NCBI RefSeq assembly: GCF_900091575.1
Contig: NZ_FMCR01000007.1
Location: forward strand, 248,001 to 312,000
DNA length: 64,000 nucleotides
Direction of reading: 5' to 3'
DNA from: Micromonospora saelicesensis
GTDB taxonomy: Bacteria; Actinomycetota; Actinomycetes; Mycobacteriales; Micromonosporaceae
Shown here: one piece after another, positions 1 through 45,716 of the stretch
How positions within the stretch are numbered: position 1 is the stretch's first letter
How the letters are laid out: every line of letters starts with the position of its first letter
Notes under the pieces: generated by a model
The model's database searches: none
Told to the model about the DNA's origin: nothing
What the model saw: the letters and a program-made list of their open reading frames with translations, nothing else
Translations under genes and position numbers: made by a program

Positions 1-1308
1 TTCGGCGCGCACTGGGACTGGTCGCGGTACCAGCAGTTCGAGCCGTACCTGCGCCGGCTCTCCGGCTCGGCGACGTACGAGGAGATCTCCTGGTGCGAGA
101 TCGAACGGACCTCGGGGCAGGTCGACTGGGCCGGGCTGGACGAGATCGCCTCGCGCAGCCGGGAGTTGGGCATCACACTGCACCTGAAGATCCGCACCGG
201 CGTGTGCTGGGCGACCGGTGGCACGGCCCGCTACACCCGGGGCGCGGCGAGCAAGACCGAGTCGGCGATGCCCACCGACCTCGGCGCGTACCAGCGGTTC
301 GTCCGCTCGGTGGTACAGCGCTACGGCCCGTACGGGGTGCGGGAGTACGCCATCGAGAACGAGGTCAACGCGCCGAGCTACTGGGCCGGCAGCCCCGAGG
401 AGTACGCGCGGCTGGTCCGCGCCGCCGCCGAGACGATCCGCGCGACCGACCCGACGGCGCGGGTGGTCGACTCCGGCATCAGCAGCGTCGCGTACGGCAT
501 GGGTGTCGCCGACCGGCTGGTGCGCGCCGGTCGGGTGCCCGAGGCCATCGCCGCCTACCAGGCGTACTTCCAACGTCGGGTCGGCACCCGGGGGCAGCAG
601 ATCCCGGCGGTGACCGGGGAGGCGCAGCTGCGCCGGGCGCTCGGCACCGAGACCAACAGCCGCAGCCTGCGCTTCCTGACGGTGACCGAGTCGCTGCTGA
701 CCGACCGCACCGTCGACGTCCGCCAGGTGCACTTCTACGAACACTTCAGCGGGGTGGCCCCGCTGCTGGACTACCTGCGCGCCACCACACCGCCGGGTAT
801 GCCGATCCAGGCGTGGGAGGTCGGGCAGTTCTGGCGCGACGGCGACGGTGACCCGGCCAGTCGGGCGGCGGAGATGGTCAAGACGGTCACCCTGCTGGTC
901 GCCGGCGGGATCGGCGAGATCAGTTGGCTGCCGTTGGCGTACAACCCGAACAACGCCGCCGGCAGCGAGGTCCGCTACGGCCTGCTCGACCCGGACGGCG
1001 CCGAACGGGACGCCGGCCGGATGCTGGCCGCCCTGGCCGACGCGGCCCGGGACGCCACCGTCACCCCGCTGCCCGCCCCGGTGGCCGGCAAACTGCACGG
1101 GGTCGCGTTCGTCCGGGGCGGGTCGAGCACGCTGGTGCTCTGGTCGGCGTCGAACACGCCGGTGACCGTGCCGGCGACACCCGGCGGACGGACCGGGGCG
1201 GTGGGTTCCCCGCTCGGCGCGGCCGGCGGCGGCACCACAGTGACCGACATCCCCGTCCTGCTCCGCGCCGACCAGCCGGTGGACCGGATCCTCGCCACCG
1301 TCCGTTAG
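1..1308 (+). CDS. Glycoside hydrolase, clan GH-A-like TIM barrel (5'-truncated by window)
   Basis: The reading frame is open from base 1, so the N-terminus lies outside the window; about 435 residues are visible. The family was judged from pattern only: an ENEVN segment (IENEVN) carries the expected acid/base glutamate of a clan GH-A (beta/alpha)8 barrel, and a later QAWEVGQFW segment carries a candidate nucleophile glutamate. A small beta-rich tail follows, as in GH39/GH5-type enzymes. It probably cleaves a polysaccharide or oligosaccharide, but the substrate cannot be read. It is convergent with the exopolysaccharide operon that follows, so a role in trimming or turnover of that polymer is possible. 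The exact GH family is uncertain. Confidence 0.75.
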   Translation, partial: FGAHWDWSRYQQFEPYLRRLSGSATYEEISWCEIERTSGQVDWAGLDEIASRSRELGITLHLKIRTGVCWATGGTARYTRGAASKTESAMPTDLGAYQRFVRSVVQRYGPYGVREYAIENEVNAPSYWAGSPEEYARLVRAAAETIRATDPTARVVDSGISSVAYGMGVADRLVRAGRVPEAIAAYQAYFQRRVGTRGQQIPAVTGEAQLRRALGTETNSRSLRFLTVTESLLTDRTVDVRQVHFYEHFSGVAPLLDYLRATTPPGMPIQAWEVGQFWRDGDGDPASRAAEMVKTVTLLVAGGIGEISWLPLAYNPNNAAGSEVRYGLLDPDGAERDAGRMLAALADAARDATVTPLPAPVAGKLHGVAFVRGGSSTLVLWSASNTPVTVPATPGGRTGAVGSPLGAAGGGTTVTDIPVLLRADQPVDRILATVR

Positions 1309-1335
1309 CGACCCCCAGCGTGCGCTCGCTGGCCC

Positions 1336-1437
1336 GCATGTCGATGTGCCGAGCAGCGGTATACCTCAGAGGTATAAATATGCCTCTGAGGTATACCGCT
1401 CATTGCCGTGTCCGTCCTCGGCGGCGGTGACCGACGG
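1336..1437. repeat. Dispersed ~100-bp intergenic repeat, copy 1
   Basis: This sequence aligns almost without gaps to 42525-42625. Its centre has 18-bp inverted arms at 1355-1372 and 1383-1400. The left arm contains the shorter palindrome TATACCTCAGAGGTATA, and the right arm contains a near-copy. Flanks are also conserved (GCATGTCGATGTGC on the left, GACCGACGG on the right), so the unit is more than a chance hairpin. It lies between two convergent genes. A REP-like element, a bidirectional terminator or a transposable operator are all possible. Confidence 0.85.
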
Positions 1438-1450
1438 CGACCGCCGTGCC

Positions 1451-2302
1451 CTAGCCGGGCCAGGGTTCGGGCCAGCCCAGCAGGGCGGTCAGGCGGGCGT
1501 TGTGCGGCGCGAAGTGCTCGCCGAGACGCTCGCGCAGAGCCGGGGTCAACTGCGAGACGCCGTGGTCGACGCGACGGGTGTGCCGGGTGAACGCCTCGGG
1601 GGTGAAGGCCGGCAGGCCGAGGAAGCGCAGCATGTCGCCGTACGTGCCGGCCGGGTCGGTGTGCAGGTCTTCGGTCCGGGTGACGTGGATCCGCTCCCGC
1701 GGGACCTGCGCGAACCACCGGTCCAACTGCTCGGCATAGCGACCCCGGGCCGCGTACGAGTAATTGCGCAACGCCCTGTGCGCGGCGGCGCTGTCCGGGC
1801 CACCGCGCGTCGCCCGGGCCAGCCGCTCCTCCTCCGCGTCGAGCGCGTCGGCGAAGGACAGCGGCTCCAGGCCGTACGAGCGGGTGTGCAGGTAGTGCGA
1901 GTAGGCCCGCTGCACCGGATCGCGCAGCAGGACGACGAAGCGGGCCTGCGGCAGGGTCGCCGCGACCCGGGCCGGCACACTCGGGTGGAACAGGTAGTAG
2001 GGGCTCGCCTCGAACGTGCGCTCACCCGGGGCGAGGCGAGGGAAGTGCCCCCGGTACCACCGCGCCCCCCGACCGTGGTGGACGCTGAAGTACTGCAACT
2101 CCTTGCCGCTGGCCACCCGGACCTGGGGATGCGCGGCGAGATGGTGGTACAGCGACGTGGTGCCGCAGCGCTGCGCACCGATCACCAGGAAGTCGGGCAG
2201 CGGACCGGGCTCTCCCGGCCGGACCGCACGCCCCCAGGCCCGCGCCGCGCGTACCCCCCGACGCAGCCGGTCGGTGACCTGACGCCGCGCGACGCCGGTC
2301 AC
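1451..2302 (-). CDS. PAPS-dependent sulfotransferase
   Basis: A 283-residue soluble sulfotransferase. It should transfer sulfate from 3'-phosphoadenosine-5'-phosphosulfate to a hydroxyl of a sugar or other acceptor. The PAPS 5'-phosphate loop is visible as QRCGTTSL at residues 44-51. A 3'-phosphate-binding segment of the form RDPVQRAYSHYLH follows near residue 120. The GTG start overlaps the TGA of the upstream flippase (GTGA), which fixes the start and indicates translational coupling. As the last gene of the exopolysaccharide operon, its likely acceptor is the glycan or a lipid-linked repeat unit; that is inference from context. Confidence 0.9.
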   Translation of the reverse strand: MTGVARRQVTDRLRRGVRAARAWGRAVRPGEPGPLPDFLVIGAQRCGTTSLYHHLAAHPQVRVASGKELQYFSVHHGRGARWYRGHFPRLAPGERTFEASPYYLFHPSVPARVAATLPQARFVVLLRDPVQRAYSHYLHTRSYGLEPLSFADALDAEEERLARATRGGPDSAAAHRALRNYSYAARGRYAEQLDRWFAQVPRERIHVTRTEDLHTDPAGTYGDMLRFLGLPAFTPEAFTRHTRRVDHGVSQLTPALRERLGEHFAPHNARLTALLGWPEPWPG

Positions 2303-39007: not shown

Positions 39008-39058
39008 GCTCGCGGGACGGGCCGAACGGCGTCCCAGTGAACGAACGAGGAGATGGTG

Positions 39059-42000
39059 ATGAACCGAGCTTCGGTGCCCCGGCTACGGCGAACCCTCATC
39101 GTGCTGGGCACGGCACTGGCCACCGTCGCGGCTACCCTCACTGTCGCCACCACCACGCCGGTCGCCGCGGCCCCGTCGCCGGACGACTACAACGGCTCCG
39201 ACCTGTGGCTGCGGTACGTGCCGGTCGACGACGCGAAGCTGCTGCGTGACTACCGCCGCGCGGCCACGGCGATCGTGGTCGAGAACGCCGACGCCACGAA
39301 AGCCCACCGGCACACGAGCGACCTCGCCATGGCCCCCGATTCGAGCGAGAAGCTCGTCGAGACCACGCTGGGCGCCGCCCGGGACGAACTGGTCCGCGGT
39401 CTGGGCGGGCTGCTCGGTCAACCGACACCCGTGGCGACGGTCGACGGCGGCACGGTCCCGGACGGCGCGGTCGTGGTGGGCACGCCGACGAGTTCGCCGC
39501 TGGTGGGCCGCACCGTCGCGACCCGCGACCTGGCCAAAGTAGGCGACGAGGGCTACCTCGTCCGGTCGGTGTCGAAGGGCAGGGCACGCTTCACCGTCAT
39601 CGCCGGCAACACCGACCTCGGCGCGCTGTACGGCACCTTCGCCTTCCTCCGGCTGCTGCAGACCCAGAAACCCATCGACCACCTCCGTGTCGCGGAGTCA
39701 CCGAAGATCAAGCATCGGTTGCTGAACAACTGGGAGACCGAGCGTCTCTACGCGGGCAACAACGCCTCCGGTATCGGCGGGCTGAACGGGGAGAGCGGGG
39801 CGATCTTCAACTTCGCCGCCACCGGTGCCAGCGCCGGCCGGAACCTGCCCGTCATACTCGACCGCTACCTCGTCATGGCCCGCGCGCTGGCGTCGCTGGG
39901 CATCAACGGCATCACCATCAACAACGTCAACGCCGACAACGCGTACCTGACGAGCACCCGCATCGCGCAGGAGGCGGCCCTCGCCGACGCGCTGCGTCCG
40001 TACGGCATCAGGCTGGGTCTGTCGATCCGCTACACCGCGCCCACCGACAGCCGGTTCGCGCCCGACACGCTGACCAACAGCCAGCTCGATCCGTACGGGG
40101 CGGATTTCCGGGGCTGGTGGCACCGCCGGGCCCAGCAGATCCAGGCCGCGATCCCGGACTTCATGGGCCTCACCGTCAAGGCCAACTCCGAGGGCCAGCC
40201 GGGGCCACAGGACTTCGGGTACGACCACGGTGACGGCGCCAACGCCATCGCCGCGGCGGTGGCGCCGCTCGGGATGACGGTGCACTGGCGGACGTTCGTC
40301 TACAACGCGGAGGTCGACAACGACCGGCTCAAGCGGGCCTACCTGGAGTTCGGGCCGATCGACGACGAGGTCCAGGCGGACGGCAGCCGGGGGCGCTTCG
40401 CCGACAACGTGTTCCTCCAGACCAAGAACGGGCCACTGGACTTCCAGGCCCGGGAGCCCATCCACCCGATGTTCGGCCGGATGGAGAACACCAACCAGGC
40501 CCTGGAACTCCAGATCACGCAGGAGTACACCGGCCAGAACTGGATGCTGGCCTACCTCGGCCCGATGTACGAGGAGATCCTCAAGACCGACACGTACGCG
40601 ACCGACGCGAACGGGAAGCTGCTCAAGAAGCGCCTGGTCGGCAACATCGTCGACGGGACCGCCCAGCACCACCCGGACACCGCCATCGTGGGTGTCGCCA
40701 ACCTCGGCAACGCGGACAACCTGACCGGGCACCACTTCTCCCAGGCGAACCTGTTCGCCTTCGGACGTCAGGCGTGGGACTGGACGCTCGACTCGGCGGA
40801 CATCGCGACCGACTGGACGCGGATGACCTGGAGCAACGACCGGCGCGTCGTCGACACCATCCGCGCGATGATGATGGGCTCGTGGGAGTCGCTGGTCAGC
40901 TACCAGACGCCGCTGGGCATCGGCCACCAGTTCGCCGAGGGCGCCCACTACCGTCCCGACCCCGCCGACTGGGCGGGCCGTGACGACTGGAGCCCGATCT
41001 ACTACAACAAGGCCGACAGCGTCGGTCTGGGCTTCGACCGCTCCCCCACCGGCAGCAACCTGGCCGCCCAGTACTTCCCCCGGTTGCAGCAGCGCTACGG
41101 GAACATCAACTCGGTCCCGGAGAACCTGCTGATGTGGTTCCACCACGTGCCGTGGGGCCATCGGATGGACAGCGGCCGGACGTTCTGGGACGAGCTGGTC
41201 TACCGCTACCAGATGGGCGTCCAGTACGTGACCTGGATGCGGGAAACCTGGGACGCACTCCAACCCGACATCGACGCACGCCGGTTCGCTGAGGTACGCG
41301 CCAAGCTGGCGGTGCACGAGGCGGACGCCGCCGACTGGCGGGACACCTCGGTGAACTACTGGAAGGAGTTCAGCGGGCGGGACATCCCGGTCGACGACGC
41401 GCCACTGTCGGCGACGATCGTGGTGAACGGGAAGAGGTTCGGCGGCTTTAACCTGTCGGACACCTCGTACACCATCCCGGTGCCGGCCGGGGCGTCGCCG
41501 ACCATCACGAAGGTGCGGACGGCCGACCGGAAGGCCCGCTACGAGATCATCTCCCAGGCGGCCGGCGTACCCGGTCAGGCGGTCGTCAAGGTCACGACGG
41601 AGAGCTTCTTCGGCCCCCTGGTGAAGAACTACGTCTTCAACCTGGTGCCCGACACGACGCTGACGGCAGTGCGCGTCGACGGTAAGCGTCTGGAGTCCTT
41701 CGCACCGACGGTGCTGCGCTACAACGCCCTCACGCCGGCCGGCACCACGACAGTGCCGACGGTCACCGCCAGCGCCGCCGACCCCGCCGCAACGGTCACG
41801 GTCGAGCAGGCGACCAGCCCCACCGGGCAGGCCCGGGTCACCGTCACCAACGGCGGAGCCTCGTCGGTCTACACCGTGGACCTGAACACCACCATCACCG
41901 GCAGCGACGAGTTCGACTCGGCTCAGCTCGGCCCGCAGTGGCAGTGGGTCCGGCCGGACGAGAGCAGCCGGCGTCTGGCCGACGGGTCCCTGGTCATCAC

Positions 42001-42520
42001 CGCGCAGCAGGGCGACCTCCAGGGCACCGCCAACACCGCGAGGAACCTGACCCTGCAGGACGTCGACGGCGACTGGACGGCCGAGTCCCGTGTCGTTTTC
42101 TCCCGCCCACTCGCCACCAACAACGAGCAGGGCGGAGTGCTCGGGTACGCGGACGACAACAACTACGTGAAGCTCGCCTGGGAGATGGGCAACGCGACCG
42201 CGGCCGTCAACAAGACCCGGATCGTCTTCCTGCGCGAGCAGAACGGCACGGCGTCCACCCTGGAGATCACCGGAGCCGACGCCCAGCGGATCGTCGGGGC
42301 CGACGGCGCCATCTGGCTGCGACTGACCAAGATCGGGGACAGCTACCGCGCCTACTACTCCACCGACGGAAGTGTCTACCGCTACATCGGCTCCCAGACG
42401 CTGAACGTCGAGCCGACGAAGGCCGGGCTGCTGGCCTTCAACCGGGCCGGCACCTCCACCGACCTCGACGTCGCCTTCGACTACTTCCGGATCGAGAGCC
42501 GCGGCGAACGTATCCGCTGA
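39059..42520 (+). CDS. Secreted GH67 alpha-glucuronidase, large multidomain form
   Basis: A 1153-residue secreted enzyme. After a signal peptide (about 1-40), the GH67 core begins with DLWLRYVPV. Catalytic segments are visible: acid E near 378 in ANSEGQPGP, D near 459 in NGPLDFQ and E near 487 in LQITQEYTG. The core ends near residue 780. It is followed by a beta-sandwich (about 780-870), a linker domain and a C-terminal concanavalin-like/DUF1349-type domain from about residue 950 (DEFDSAQLGPQWQW). Typical GH67 proteins have about 700 residues and are intracellular or periplasmic. It should release 4-O-methylglucuronic acid from aldouronic acids. GAGGAG six bases upstream favours the ATG at 39059. 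Confidence 0.93.
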   Translation: MNRASVPRLRRTLIVLGTALATVAATLTVATTTPVAAAPSPDDYNGSDLWLRYVPVDDAKLLRDYRRAATAIVVENADATKAHRHTSDLAMAPDSSEKLVETTLGAARDELVRGLGGLLGQPTPVATVDGGTVPDGAVVVGTPTSSPLVGRTVATRDLAKVGDEGYLVRSVSKGRARFTVIAGNTDLGALYGTFAFLRLLQTQKPIDHLRVAESPKIKHRLLNNWETERLYAGNNASGIGGLNGESGAIFNFAATGASAGRNLPVILDRYLVMARALASLGINGITINNVNADNAYLTSTRIAQEAALADALRPYGIRLGLSIRYTAPTDSRFAPDTLTNSQLDPYGADFRGWWHRRAQQIQAAIPDFMGLTVKANSEGQPGPQDFGYDHGDGANAIAAAVAPLGMTVHWRTFVYNAEVDNDRLKRAYLEFGPIDDEVQADGSRGRFADNVFLQTKNGPLDFQAREPIHPMFGRMENTNQALELQITQEYTGQNWMLAYLGPMYEEILKTDTYATDANGKLLKKRLVGNIVDGTAQHHPDTAIVGVANLGNADNLTGHHFSQANLFAFGRQAWDWTLDSADIATDWTRMTWSNDRRVVDTIRAMMMGSWESLVSYQTPLGIGHQFAEGAHYRPDPADWAGRDDWSPIYYNKADSVGLGFDRSPTGSNLAAQYFPRLQQRYGNINSVPENLLMWFHHVPWGHRMDSGRTFWDELVYRYQMGVQYVTWMRETWDALQPDIDARRFAEVRAKLAVHEADAADWRDTSVNYWKEFSGRDIPVDDAPLSATIVVNGKRFGGFNLSDTSYTIPVPAGASPTITKVRTADRKARYEIISQAAGVPGQAVVKVTTESFFGPLVKNYVFNLVPDTTLTAVRVDGKRLESFAPTVLRYNALTPAGTTTVPTVTASAADPAATVTVEQATSPTGQARVTVTNGGASSVYTVDLNTTITGSDEFDSAQLGPQWQWVRPDESSRRLADGSLVITAQQGDLQGTANTARNLTLQDVDGDWTAESRVVFSRPLATNNEQGGVLGYADDNNYVKLAWEMGNATAAVNKTRIVFLREQNGTASTLEITGADAQRIVGADGAIWLRLTKIGDSYRAYYSTDGSVYRYIGSQTLNVEPTKAGLLAFNRAGTSTDLDVAFDYFRIESRGERIR

Positions 42521-42524
42521 ACCG

Positions 42525-42625
42525 GCATGTCGATGTGCTGTTGAGCGGTATACCTCAGAGTCATATTCATACCTCTGAGGTATACCGCTCAATACCGCGT
42601 CCGCCCCGACGAAGGCGACCGACGG
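42525..42625. repeat. Dispersed ~100-bp intergenic repeat, copy 2
   Basis: It aligns to 1336-1437 with the same flanks and a one-base gap. Here the arms are 20 bp and perfect (42541-42560 with 42573-42592, core GCGGTATACCTCAGAG). It again lies between convergent genes (GH67 plus, GH95 minus), immediately before a separate GC-rich terminator hairpin. Confidence 0.87.
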
Positions 42626-42652
42626 TCAGGACCACCGCAGCACCGAAAGCCG

Positions 42653-42689
42653 CGACCGGGCCCGTCCCCGGTGGGGACGGGCCCGGTCG
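42653..42689 (-). terminator. Hairpin downstream of the GH95 gene
   Basis: CGACCGGGCCCGTCCCC (42653-42669) pairs perfectly with 42673-42689 around a 3-nt loop, 27 nt past the GH95 stop. Confidence 0.88.
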
Positions 42690-42716
42690 TGCTCCCCCGA
42701 GCAGGATCCGTTGCTG

Positions 42717-45716
42717 TCAGCCCCCGATCGCGATGGCGAAGATGTGCATGGTCGGCACGTTCGTCGCGGGCCGGGCGCTGATGTTGGGCAACACGACCGA
42801 GGCCACCGCCTTGCTCTGCAACGCGACACCAACGTAGTAGATGCAGGCGGCGGTGGCCTGGCGGACGTTGTTGGGCCGGTTCTGGTACGCCGACACGATG
42901 GCCGCGGTGCCCCCGGAGTGCGGCCCGCCGTACCAGTCGGGCGTGCTCAACGTGAACGTCTGGCGGGTGCCGTCGGCGTAGACCACGGTGCCGGTCCCCG
43001 ACACCGCGCCGTAGGTGCCGGTCAGCAGGAAGCCGAGCGTGCTGCCGGTGCCGGTAACGCCGATGGTCTGGCCCGAGGCGATGGCGTTGTCGGCGGCCCC
43101 GGAGCTGACGTTGGGCCAGCGGAAGTTGACGCCGTTGCGGCTCACCGTGCCGCCCGGGCTGGCACCGGCCTGCGCCAGGGCCTGCGCGGAGAGCGAGGCC
43201 CCGCCGCCGTCGAAGTTCCCGACGTTGGTGTTGCTGTCGCTGGTGATGCCGACGTTGCTGAAGCTCTGCTCCAGCGTCGGCGTGGTGGCACCGGAACCGG
43301 TGACCCGGTAGGTGCGTCCGGCCTGCACTGTGACGTCGATCAGGTCGGACTCGATCCGGGTGGTCCGGGCCGCCGTACCGTCGGCGGTGTCGACCACCGT
43401 GACGGTGCCGGTCAGGATCCGGGAGCGCAGGCGGACGGTGCCGGCCCGGTCCGGTCGGATGAGGATCTCGGTGGCCACACCGCTCGCCCAGGTGATGCCG
43501 ACCGTGTGCCCACCCCGACCGCGCAGGCCGGTCACCCGACCGCTCGGCCAGGCCGGGGGCAGCGCGGGCAGGACGTGCAGCTCCCCGGTGTGGCTCTGCA
43601 ACAGCATCTCGGCGATGCCGGCGGTGGCGCCGAAGTTGCCGTCGATCTGGAACGGCGGGTGCAGGTCGAACATGTTGGGCGCGAGCCGCGCGGTGGTGGC
43701 GAGGTAGCGGATCAGGTCGTGGGCCCGCTTGCCCTCCTCCATCCGAGCCCAGAAGTTGATTTTCCAGGCCAGCGACCAGCCCGTGCCGTCGTCGCCGCGC
43801 AGCGCCAGGGTCCGCCGGGCCGCCTCGAACAGCTGCGGAGTGCCGCGCTTGGTGATCTGGTTGCTGGGGGCCAGCCCGTACAGGTGCGAGATGTGCCGGT
43901 GGTTGGGTTCGGTCTCCACCCAGTCGTAGAGCCACTCCATGATGTTGCCGCGCGAGCCGATCTTCATGGGCGGGAGCCGGTCCCGGGTGGCGCGAACCTG
44001 CGCCCGGAAGGTGCTGTCCACGTTGAGGATCTCGCTGGCCCGGGCGCACGCGTCGAACAGGTCCCGCAGGATCTGGTTGTCCATGGTGGGGCCGGCGCAC
44101 ACGCTGGCGTTCGCGTGGTGGCTCAGCTCTGGCGAGTTCGACGGGTTGGTCACCAGGTAACCGAGGGTCGGCTCGGTCACCAGGGTGTTGAGGAAGAACT
44201 GCGCCGCGCCCTTCATGGCCGGGTAGTTCGTCCGCAGGAACTCGATGTCGCCGTTGAACAGGTAGTGGTCCCAGATCAACGTGGACAGCCAGGCGCCGCC
44301 GGTCTGCCACATGCCCCAGAACGCCCCGTCCACCACCGCGGTGGCCCGCCACGCGTCGGTGTTGTGGTGGGTGACCCAGCCACTGGCGGCGCCGTACTGC
44401 ACCTGGGCGGTGCGCGCTCCGGCGACGGCGAGATCTCTGACCATGTCGAAGACCGGGTTGTGGCACTCGGCCAGGTTTGTGGTGTTGGCCGGCCAGTAGT
44501 TCATCGGCAGGTTGGCGTTGATCGTGTATTTCGAGTCCCACGCCGGGGCCAGCGAGTCGTTCCAGATGCCCTGGAGGTTGGCCGGTTGGGTGCCGGGCCG
44601 CGAGGACGAGATCAGCAGGTAGCGGCCGTATTGGAACAGCAGCGTGGAGAACTGCGGGTCGTTGACGCTGTTGTGCTGGGCGATCCGGACATCCGTCGTC
44701 TGGTCGGCCGCGGACGTGCGGCCCAGATCGAGAGTGACCCGGCCGAACAGCGCCTGGTAGTCGGCCACGTGCCGGCTGCGCAGCTGGTCGTAGCTGCTGG
44801 CCCGCGCGGCGGTGAGGCGCTGCCGGGCGATGCCCTGGTAGTCGCCGCCGACGTTGCGGTAGTTGACGTAGCTGGAGCCGATGGAGATCAGCAGGGTCAC
44901 GCTGTTGGCGTTGGTCACCCGCAGGGTGCCGCCGGAGCTGGACACGCTGCCGCCGCTGACTGTCGCGTTGGCCAGGGCCAGGAAGCGGACCGCGCCGGTG
45001 ACGCCCTCCATGTTTCCGGAGACGCCGTCGAGGCCGATCGTGGTGCCGTCCGGGCTGGAGACCGTGGTGCGCTGCGGGCTGTCGAAGGTGGCGGTGAAGC
45101 TGATCGAGCCGGTCCGGTCGGCGGTCAGTCGCATCGCGATGACCTGGTCGGGCGCGCTGGCGAACACCTCCCGCTGGTGACGAACGCCGTTCAGCACGTA
45201 CGTCGTCGTGACGGTGGCGGTGGTGAGGTCGAGCGTCCGGTCGTACTGTGACGCTCCGCTGGCGGAACCGAAGGCGAGCCGCAGGTTGCCGACGGTCTGG
45301 TAGGCCAACTGGCCGCCGGGGTTGCCCATCATGGTCTGGTTGATCAGATCCTGGGCCTGGGTCCACTGGTTCGCGTTGACCAGCCGTCGGATCTCCGCGA
45401 GCGCTCCCGCGCCTCTGGGATTGCTGGGATCGTGCGGCCCACCGGCCCAGACGGTGTCCTCATTGAGCTGAAGTCGCTCGGTGTCGACGTTGCCGAAGAC
45501 CATGGCGCCGAGCCGGCCGTTGCCGATCGGCAGCGCCCGCAGCCAGTCGGTCCCGGCCCCTTCGTCGTACCAGAGGGCGAGGTCCCCGGCGGCCAACACC
45601 TGCGGCGGCGCCACCGAGTCCGCTCGTGCCACGGCGGTCCAGGGCACCGGCAGGAGAGCACCACCCGCGCCGGCTGCGCCGATCTTGAGGGCCTGCCGTC
45701 GGGTCAGGTCTGACAT
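42717..45716 (-). CDS. Secreted GH95 alpha-L-fucosidase/galactosidase with accessory domain
   Basis: A 999-residue secreted enzyme. The twin-arginine signal TRRQALKIGAAGAGG implies Tat export. The GH95 N-terminal beta domain starts at PIGNGRLGAMVFG. The (alpha/alpha)6 barrel contains TINANLPMNYW (catalytic asparagines) and DLHPPFQIDGNFGATAG (general acid/base region). A C-terminal beta-sandwich of about 140 residues (FSNVGITSDSNTNVGNFDGGG) is common on actinobacterial glycosidases. It should release alpha-1,2-fucose or alpha-L-galactose from plant or host glycans such as xyloglucan. TTTGGAGGATCG precedes the ATG at 45716; the longer frame upstream is unlikely. An ACATC-N-GATGT palindrome lies 132 bp upstream. 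Confidence 0.94.
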   Translation of the reverse strand: MSDLTRRQALKIGAAGAGGALLPVPWTAVARADSVAPPQVLAAGDLALWYDEGAGTDWLRALPIGNGRLGAMVFGNVDTERLQLNEDTVWAGGPHDPSNPRGAGALAEIRRLVNANQWTQAQDLINQTMMGNPGGQLAYQTVGNLRLAFGSASGASQYDRTLDLTTATVTTTYVLNGVRHQREVFASAPDQVIAMRLTADRTGSISFTATFDSPQRTTVSSPDGTTIGLDGVSGNMEGVTGAVRFLALANATVSGGSVSSSGGTLRVTNANSVTLLISIGSSYVNYRNVGGDYQGIARQRLTAARASSYDQLRSRHVADYQALFGRVTLDLGRTSAADQTTDVRIAQHNSVNDPQFSTLLFQYGRYLLISSSRPGTQPANLQGIWNDSLAPAWDSKYTINANLPMNYWPANTTNLAECHNPVFDMVRDLAVAGARTAQVQYGAASGWVTHHNTDAWRATAVVDGAFWGMWQTGGAWLSTLIWDHYLFNGDIEFLRTNYPAMKGAAQFFLNTLVTEPTLGYLVTNPSNSPELSHHANASVCAGPTMDNQILRDLFDACARASEILNVDSTFRAQVRATRDRLPPMKIGSRGNIMEWLYDWVETEPNHRHISHLYGLAPSNQITKRGTPQLFEAARRTLALRGDDGTGWSLAWKINFWARMEEGKRAHDLIRYLATTARLAPNMFDLHPPFQIDGNFGATAGIAEMLLQSHTGELHVLPALPPAWPSGRVTGLRGRGGHTVGITWASGVATEILIRPDRAGTVRLRSRILTGTVTVVDTADGTAARTTRIESDLIDVTVQAGRTYRVTGSGATTPTLEQSFSNVGITSDSNTNVGNFDGGGASLSAQALAQAGASPGGTVSRNGVNFRWPNVSSGAADNAIASGQTIGVTGTGSTLGFLLTGTYGAVSGTGTVVYADGTRQTFTLSTPDWYGGPHSGGTAAIVSAYQNRPNNVRQATAACIYYVGVALQSKAVASVVLPNISARPATNVPTMHIFAIAIGG

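Follow-up and report, generated by a model that had tools for sequence, protein, structure and literature searches.

A hairpin repeat of Micromonospora concentrated between convergent genes, with a subfamily best read as an IS982-type MITE

Introduction

REP/BIME–RAYT systems consist of extragenic palindromes that are present in many copies, at 3′ ends and in convergent gaps. The "I-shaped" intrinsic terminators dispense with the U-tract; their strong stem-loop follows the stop codon and is often found in convergent gaps. To our knowledge, the terminators of high-GC actinobacteria are poorly understood. Among miniature elements, Cardinium cOegib harbors an IS982-derived MITE, a noncoding repeat about 240 bp long whose inverted ends resemble those of an IS982-family element (PMC9769881), and Streptococcus pneumoniae has the small dispersed repeats SPRITE, RUP and BOX, of which SPRITE is described as terminator-like (PMC10969869, a review of prokaryotic MITEs).

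Here we describe a repeat of Micromonospora. Like the Cardinium cOegib MITE, as presented in the part of PMC9769881 on which we draw, it is noncoding and has inverted ends resembling an IS982-family element. In Cardinium, however, the genome with the MITE also contains the parent IS, whereas the complete IS found here is in M. orduensis and the ends are carried by part of the Micromonospora family. The hairpin core, the location in convergent gaps and the stop-codon target belong to the Micromonospora repeat, and the same part of that paper makes no mention of them for the Cardinium MITE. SPRITE, RUP and BOX, which are from another host, can be likened to the repeat by their description in PMC10969869 as small and dispersed, one of them being terminator-like, and no T-run is present at the two copies analyzed first here. 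Unlike REP/BIME–RAYT systems, the Micromonospora repeat is not associated with a Y1 transposase and has a 48-bp core with four half-sites that is partly IS982-linked; unlike I-shaped terminators, its hairpin sequence is itself repeated and constrained genome-wide. We found no description of this Micromonospora repeat in the literature searched, as judged by titles and abstract openings, and no paper searched pairs Micromonospora with "miniature inverted repeat."

Results

Two Copies Lie in a 64-kb Window

The DNA that we analyzed, hereafter the window, is a stretch of 64,000 nucleotides (C7:248001-312000) from the 7.1-Mb genome of M. saelicesensis. The original prediction described two copies of a roughly 100-bp repeat in it, both between convergent genes, and the following features were identified.

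1..1308, + strand: gene upstream of copy 1, without a Pfam family for the part within the window
1305..1454, no strand: possible extent of copy 1, with putative borders running from the stop-codon TTAG to CTAG
1354..1401, no strand: copy 1 core, a 48-bp hairpin with four TATnnCTC-like half-sites (sequence, weight-matrix scan, both-strand folds)
1451..2302, − strand: sulfotransferase gene facing copy 1 (Pfam PF13469, PF00685)
39056..42520, + strand: GH67 glycosidase gene whose 3′ end immediately precedes copy 2 (Pfam)
42525..42625, no strand: copy 2 with the flanks common to a longer, IS982-linked subfamily (BLAST match, flank similarity)
42543..42590, no strand: copy 2 core, a 48-bp hairpin (sequence, weight-matrix scan, both-strand folds)
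42651..42691, no strand: separate, very strong GC-rich hairpin in the gap of copy 2, a candidate conventional terminator (hairpin scan)
42717..45716, − strand: GH95 glycosidase gene facing copy 2 (Pfam)

Much of the prediction held. A 126-bp query around copy 1 matched 42522-42625 at 81%, with 105 query bases to 104, which is the one-base length difference that had been noted, and about 100 bp, cores included, are common to both copies. Our gene calls place both between convergent genes, and the nested palindromes that had been seen correspond to four TATnnCTC-like half-sites forming two 17-bp palindromes inside one hairpin. The glycosidase neighbors are borne out at copy 2, which lies between GH67 (+) and GH95 (−) genes; at copy 1, the gene in question has no Pfam family and was not confirmed as a glycosidase.

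A weight-matrix scan of the 64-kb window located only the two hairpin cores, at 1354-1401 and 42543-42590. RNA folds of both copies, on both strands, gave −36.6 to −41.6 kcal/mol (z of −8.1 to −9.4). The scan used revealed no T-run after the stem on either strand of either copy, and Rfam at gathering thresholds had no match in the window. Neither window copy displayed a terminal repeat within 5 mismatches. To the left of copy 1, the stop codon of the + gene falls in TTAG (1305-1308), which in M. noduli (L088) is CTAG at the orthologous site, and to the right a CTAG (1451-1454) contains the stop codon of the − gene. These stop-codon TTAG and CTAG sites may represent the borders of the element, which would fit the CTAG-target pattern described below.

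About 55 Copies Share a 48-bp Hairpin Core

A 17-mer from the core, with up to 3 mismatches, had 93 matches per strand genome-wide compared to 0 for the reversed control, indicating that the repeat is not due to chance. The 126-bp query gave 76 BLAST matches in the M. saelicesensis genome, and a covariance model derived from 42 copies gave 110 matches; each of the 55 places involved is matched on both strands, and the last of them is weak. The whole-genome count that the original prediction called for thus came to about 55 copies, far beyond the two in the window. Of 48 loci retrieved, each 12 to 14 kb long, the 46 in which a core was present were retained and L076 and L078 excluded; the remaining 9 of the 55 covariance-model places are outside this 46-copy set, although some of them fall within sequence retrieved for other purposes.

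Nearly all matches to the model span 48 bases. The core alignment contains 42 rows, excised as 48-mers and therefore free of gaps, and half-site counts were taken from 41 distinct 48-mers. The consensus is, roughly, GAGCGnTATACCTCnGAGkCATATTTATGnCTCnGAGGTATAnCGCTC, a 48-bp imperfect palindrome that forms one hairpin and harbors two 17-bp palindromes 19 bp apart, with four TATnnCTC half-sites in all. The stem-loop is stable, with values of −32.9 to −48.1 kcal/mol (z of −6.6 to −10.8) in eight folds of six copies. A variant with the inner arms GAGTCATCACGATGACTC (GAGTCAT-CACG-ATGACTC) was observed in G002, G024, G028 and G034. Separately, L031, L040, L055, L063 and L074 seem by eye to have other flanks in common and may form another subfamily with distinct ends.

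The Repeat Is Restricted to the Genus

Analysis of 61 genomes with the covariance model, using survey filters that lose some weak matches, revealed the repeat in 26 of the genus's 36 other genomes and in none of the 24 from the order's other families. Copies per other species were very uneven, from 0 to at least about 41 (model matches halved). Among named genomes, a 21-nt pattern from the core matched 92 stretches; 78 of the 80 listed are from Micromonospora and the other two are MAGs. The full core is absent from both of these MAG matches and from five Micromonospora loci. Flank identity to M. noduli loci is 93 to 99%. A plasmid or phage origin was considered and rejected, as copy 2 had no match at E 1e-3; viral contigs contained one exact 21-nt match, without the full core.

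Copies Are Concentrated in Convergent Gaps

Genes were called with a purpose-written codon-usage script, not taken from annotation. On these calls, 30 of the 46 M. saelicesensis copies with gene context are convergent, 14 tandem and 2 divergent, compared to 22 convergent, 151 tandem and 94 divergent among background gaps of at least 60 bp at the same loci (n = 267). The statement that the repeat is found only in convergent gaps was therefore too strong, given the tandem and divergent copies, but it reflects a large bias; nor are the copies scattered at random inside genes, as none of the 46 lies inside a called gene. In 1.65 Mb of M. saelicesensis, sampled as the window and 80 stretches on chosen contigs, we counted 20 elements, 14 convergent, 5 tandem and 1 divergent, versus 116 convergent among 786 gaps (P = 4e-8). 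Similarly, 51 of 75 copies in relatives were convergent versus 23 of 267 gaps, once 12 of the 87 copies that lie at locus edges were excluded. In the tandem gaps of M. saelicesensis, the core is closer to the upstream stop in 12 of 14 cases.

No gene family among the 40 largest clusters, from 1220 predicted proteins around the M. saelicesensis and relatives' copies, recurs beside many copies. An acyltransferase-like protein family is present beside two M. saelicesensis copies at different sites (L032, L068), as is a small protein family of about 83 residues (L039, L062).

The Core Is Constrained Both in Pairing and in Letters

Covariation in the core follows the hairpin, with 57 double-changed cells versus 27.6 in shuffled alignments and 4 to 8 when partners were slid. 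Pairing as two separate 17-bp palindromes yielded only 1 double-changed cell and was rejected. The outer half-sites are identical to one another at 308 of 328 letters (z of 6.4), and the inner ones agree no better than shuffled. Among the M. saelicesensis copies, departure from the majority letter averages 4.3% in the 24 half-site columns compared to 29.9% in the other 16 columns (positions 5-44), a grouping that was chosen after the alignment was seen.

In 27 orthologous pairs, which are not independent (L032, L049, L051 and L060 were used repeatedly), identity is 95.1% in the core and 81.1% in the 60-bp flanks. Because the relatives had been found with the 21-nt pattern, we recounted identity in core columns outside it and obtained 500/540, or 92.6%. 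Outside this pattern, and with the same post hoc grouping of columns, changes numbered 10 of 216 at half-site columns and 20 of 180 at the others (P = 0.02). Seven pair changes in the 27 comparisons are compensated on both sides, two of them seen from L032; the 14 pairings lost and 18 gained exceed these 7. The hairpin loop is inverted in 4 of the 27 pairs (L032/L115, L049/L152, L064/L087, L070/L149), possibly a trace of cruciform processing or template switching. Thus, palindrome correction or inversion may yield part of the compensation without selection.

When sites were located by their flanking genes, with 30 loci fetched for each, the element was present at the trpA site in 3 of 21 loci giving a gap and at the plsC site in 2 of 29. 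The trpA site of G002 carries a diverged yet fully paired hairpin.

Some Members of a Longer Subfamily Carry Ends Resembling an IS982-Family Element

Longer shared flanks were detected on 59 of the 127 copies with enough flank, namely 14 of the 46 from M. saelicesensis (both window copies included, by flank similarity) and 45 from relatives, with conservation that drops outward from the core. Inverted ends like CTAGACGAGTAAGTCCTAAC, mostly about 119 bp off the hairpin center, are present on one or both sides in 21 of 133 elements, using a search that allowed 6 mismatches in 22 and gave one match elsewhere in 1.37 Mb. In a second count, with up to 7 mismatches in 20 to CTAGACGAGTAAGTCCTAAC, 31 of 117 subfamily flanks matched versus 1 of 328 control windows; copies outside the subfamily, in M. 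saelicesensis and relatives, had the ends on 0 of 143 flanks (control, 1 of 411). Where both ends are present, the copy is 217 to 265 bp long.

A 988-bp element of M. orduensis is bounded by ends that are nearly identical (19 of 20 and 18 of 20 bases), and its 297-aa ORF is an IS982-family transposase (NF033520, E of 5.8e-55, score of 186.5 versus a cut-off of 130). It is the best candidate for the type of transposase that mobilized the subfamily. The searched part of the M. saelicesensis genome contains no relative of it by tblastn at 1e-5. IS630, the target of which is CTAG, was considered as the mobilizer and dropped once the IS982 element was found. Some 2 kb away from the complete IS, at L276:2281-2300, a lone IS982-type end adjoins a gene for a LysR regulator. 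M. saelicesensis has, between genes at C4:596087-596106 (L245), an end that resembles the TIR and includes CTAG; no core was noticed there, and it is possibly a relic.

The subfamily is also distinguished by its target. The 51 recognized ends reduce to 33 distinct ones, several of them mutually orthologous, of which 23 read CTAG; in 16 of these, the CTAG coincides with the stop codon of the neighboring gene. At L118, CTAG is found at both element ends and may belong to the TIR. TAG accounts for 11 of 25 stops facing subfamily copies in M. saelicesensis and 28 of 78 in relatives, compared to a background of 189 of 1315 (P = 4e-4 and 6e-6, respectively), and the excess holds against convergent genes only (86 of 470; P = 0.004 and 8e-4). 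No TAG excess is seen at the copies outside it (5 of 49 in M. saelicesensis, 7 of 51 in relatives). No clean empty site for a TIR-bearing copy was observed among the loci examined.

Because of the TIRs, the matching ends of the M. orduensis IS and the TAG-stop excess, the longer subfamily is best read as an IS982-type MITE. Thus, the MITE that had been offered as one explanation fits the subfamily to which both window copies belong, some members of which have TIRs matching IS982 ends, but not the other copies, with 0 of 143 flanks. The latter may be either an older generation with lost borders or descendants of a hairpin that existed first and was then captured by IS982 ends; the missing TAG excess outside the subfamily favors the second possibility.

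CTAG Target Choice and Second Hairpins

Of 274 CTAGs in 1.25 Mb, 42 are inside genes, 55 at stops and 177 between genes, and this rarity inside genes means that landing on CTAG favors gene ends. CTAGs in gaps, however, number 41 convergent, 98 tandem and 66 divergent, a bias too weak for CTAG insertion alone to have placed two thirds of the copies in convergent gaps. Five of 249 convergent pairs share one CTAG stop.

With respect to intrinsic-terminator features, the repeat has a stable stem-loop after a stop codon and, at the two window copies, no T-run. A second strong hairpin (score of at least 33) is present in 8 of 30 element-bearing convergent gaps compared to 27 of 53 element-free ones of 100 to 500 bp (P = 0.04; coding windows, 1 of 183), as though the element were able to replace the usual hairpin. 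At a stricter score (at least 39) the counts are 7 of 30 and 16 of 53 and the difference is nearly gone, so the support that this comparison gives is weak.

Discussion

Our data lead us to suggest, tentatively and at somewhat short of an even chance, that the repeat is a genus-restricted, bidirectional 3′-end hairpin, one subfamily of which spread as an IS982 MITE, with a putative role as a terminator or 3′ barrier. Transcription from either side would produce a 20-24 bp RNA stem, by which the transcripts of two convergent genes would be stopped or bounded. An IS982-family transposase acting on CTAGACGAGTAAGTCC ends would have spread the subfamily, both window copies included, as a MITE. Landing on CTAG, often that of a TAG stop codon, would leave the gene intact; selection would purge copies inside operons or promoters; and copies in convergent gaps would be retained, their hairpin core kept while the flanks decayed. 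Several findings count against a 3′-end role. By the scan used, no T-run follows either window copy. In the gap of copy 2 and in seven other element-bearing convergent gaps there is a second strong hairpin, and many species lack the element between the corresponding genes, as at the trpA and plsC sites. The half-site letters are constrained, though a plain terminator requires no conserved sequence. In addition, the subfamily copy L130 adjoins a GC-rich hairpin that M. saelicesensis also has without the element.

The main rival is a purely selfish MITE family, in part of IS982 type, the position of which reflects target choice (CTAG, gene ends) and the removal of harmful insertions and the hairpin of which has no host function. 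We consider this a serious possibility, although one we would not bet on. The TIRs, the IS982 element and the TAG-stop association all speak for such a family, as do a target that is scarce inside genes (42 of 274 CTAGs), copy numbers that are very uneven between species, sites that vary between species (trpA, plsC) and a second-hairpin difference that fades at the stricter score. It is harder to reconcile with the gap CTAG counts (41/98/66), which fall short of two thirds convergent unless purging was strong, with the copies lacking a TIR, still 19 of 32 convergent outside the longer subfamily in M. saelicesensis, and with a core that changes less than its flanks and in which some pairs are compensated. 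A REP/BIME element mobilized by a RAYT (Y1 HUH transposase), which the original prediction had listed, shares the hairpin, the extragenic 3′ position and the many copies, and M. saelicesensis has a single Y1 transposase gene (PF01797; C4:660446-660798, L079 and L080), split over two overlapping frames. Presence of PF01797 in M. saelicesensis and 60 relatives, however, does not track copy number: 8 of the 10 other genomes with at least 40 model matches have no Y1 match, and Y1 is present in 4 genomes of the genus without the repeat. Moreover, the 5′ tetranucleotide of REPs is GTAG, and by eye no common tetranucleotide lies beside the stem outside the subfamily, the GAGC/GCTC adjoining the core being part of the stem. 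This explanation is therefore highly improbable.

A bolder rival is a protein-bound barrier. The four TATnnCTC half-sites, arranged as two 17-bp palindromes about two helical turns apart, could be a protein-binding site that acts as an insulator, roadblock or chromosome-organising site. The half-site columns vary far less than the others (4.3% versus 29.9%) and change less at orthologous sites, and nearly all model matches span exactly the same length. The two 17-bp palindromes do not covary, however, covariation following the hairpin instead, and the 40 largest protein clusters include no family beside many copies and offer no candidate protein. We therefore regard a protein-binding site as unlikely. 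More improbable still is the fuller version, a new kind of dispersed element at gene borders, in which a 48-bp cruciform-capable site is a two-way transcription barrier between convergent genes that is read by a Micromonospora protein and was captured by an IS982 MITE, which delivers it onto TAG stops with no harm to the gene. The movable operator first proposed may apply, since the constraint on half-site letters goes beyond what pairing requires, but the copies are mostly found at 3′ ends and not at promoters.

Repeated hairpins at gene ends are often dismissed as junk or as terminators, and one family here shows both sides, with a mobile subfamily often located on stop codons and a core that persists in structure and letters at orthologous sites. 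The bidirectional 3′-end hairpin that we tentatively favor would provide a specific case, open to experiment, in which transposons supply the 3′ ends of genes of a high-GC actinobacterium.
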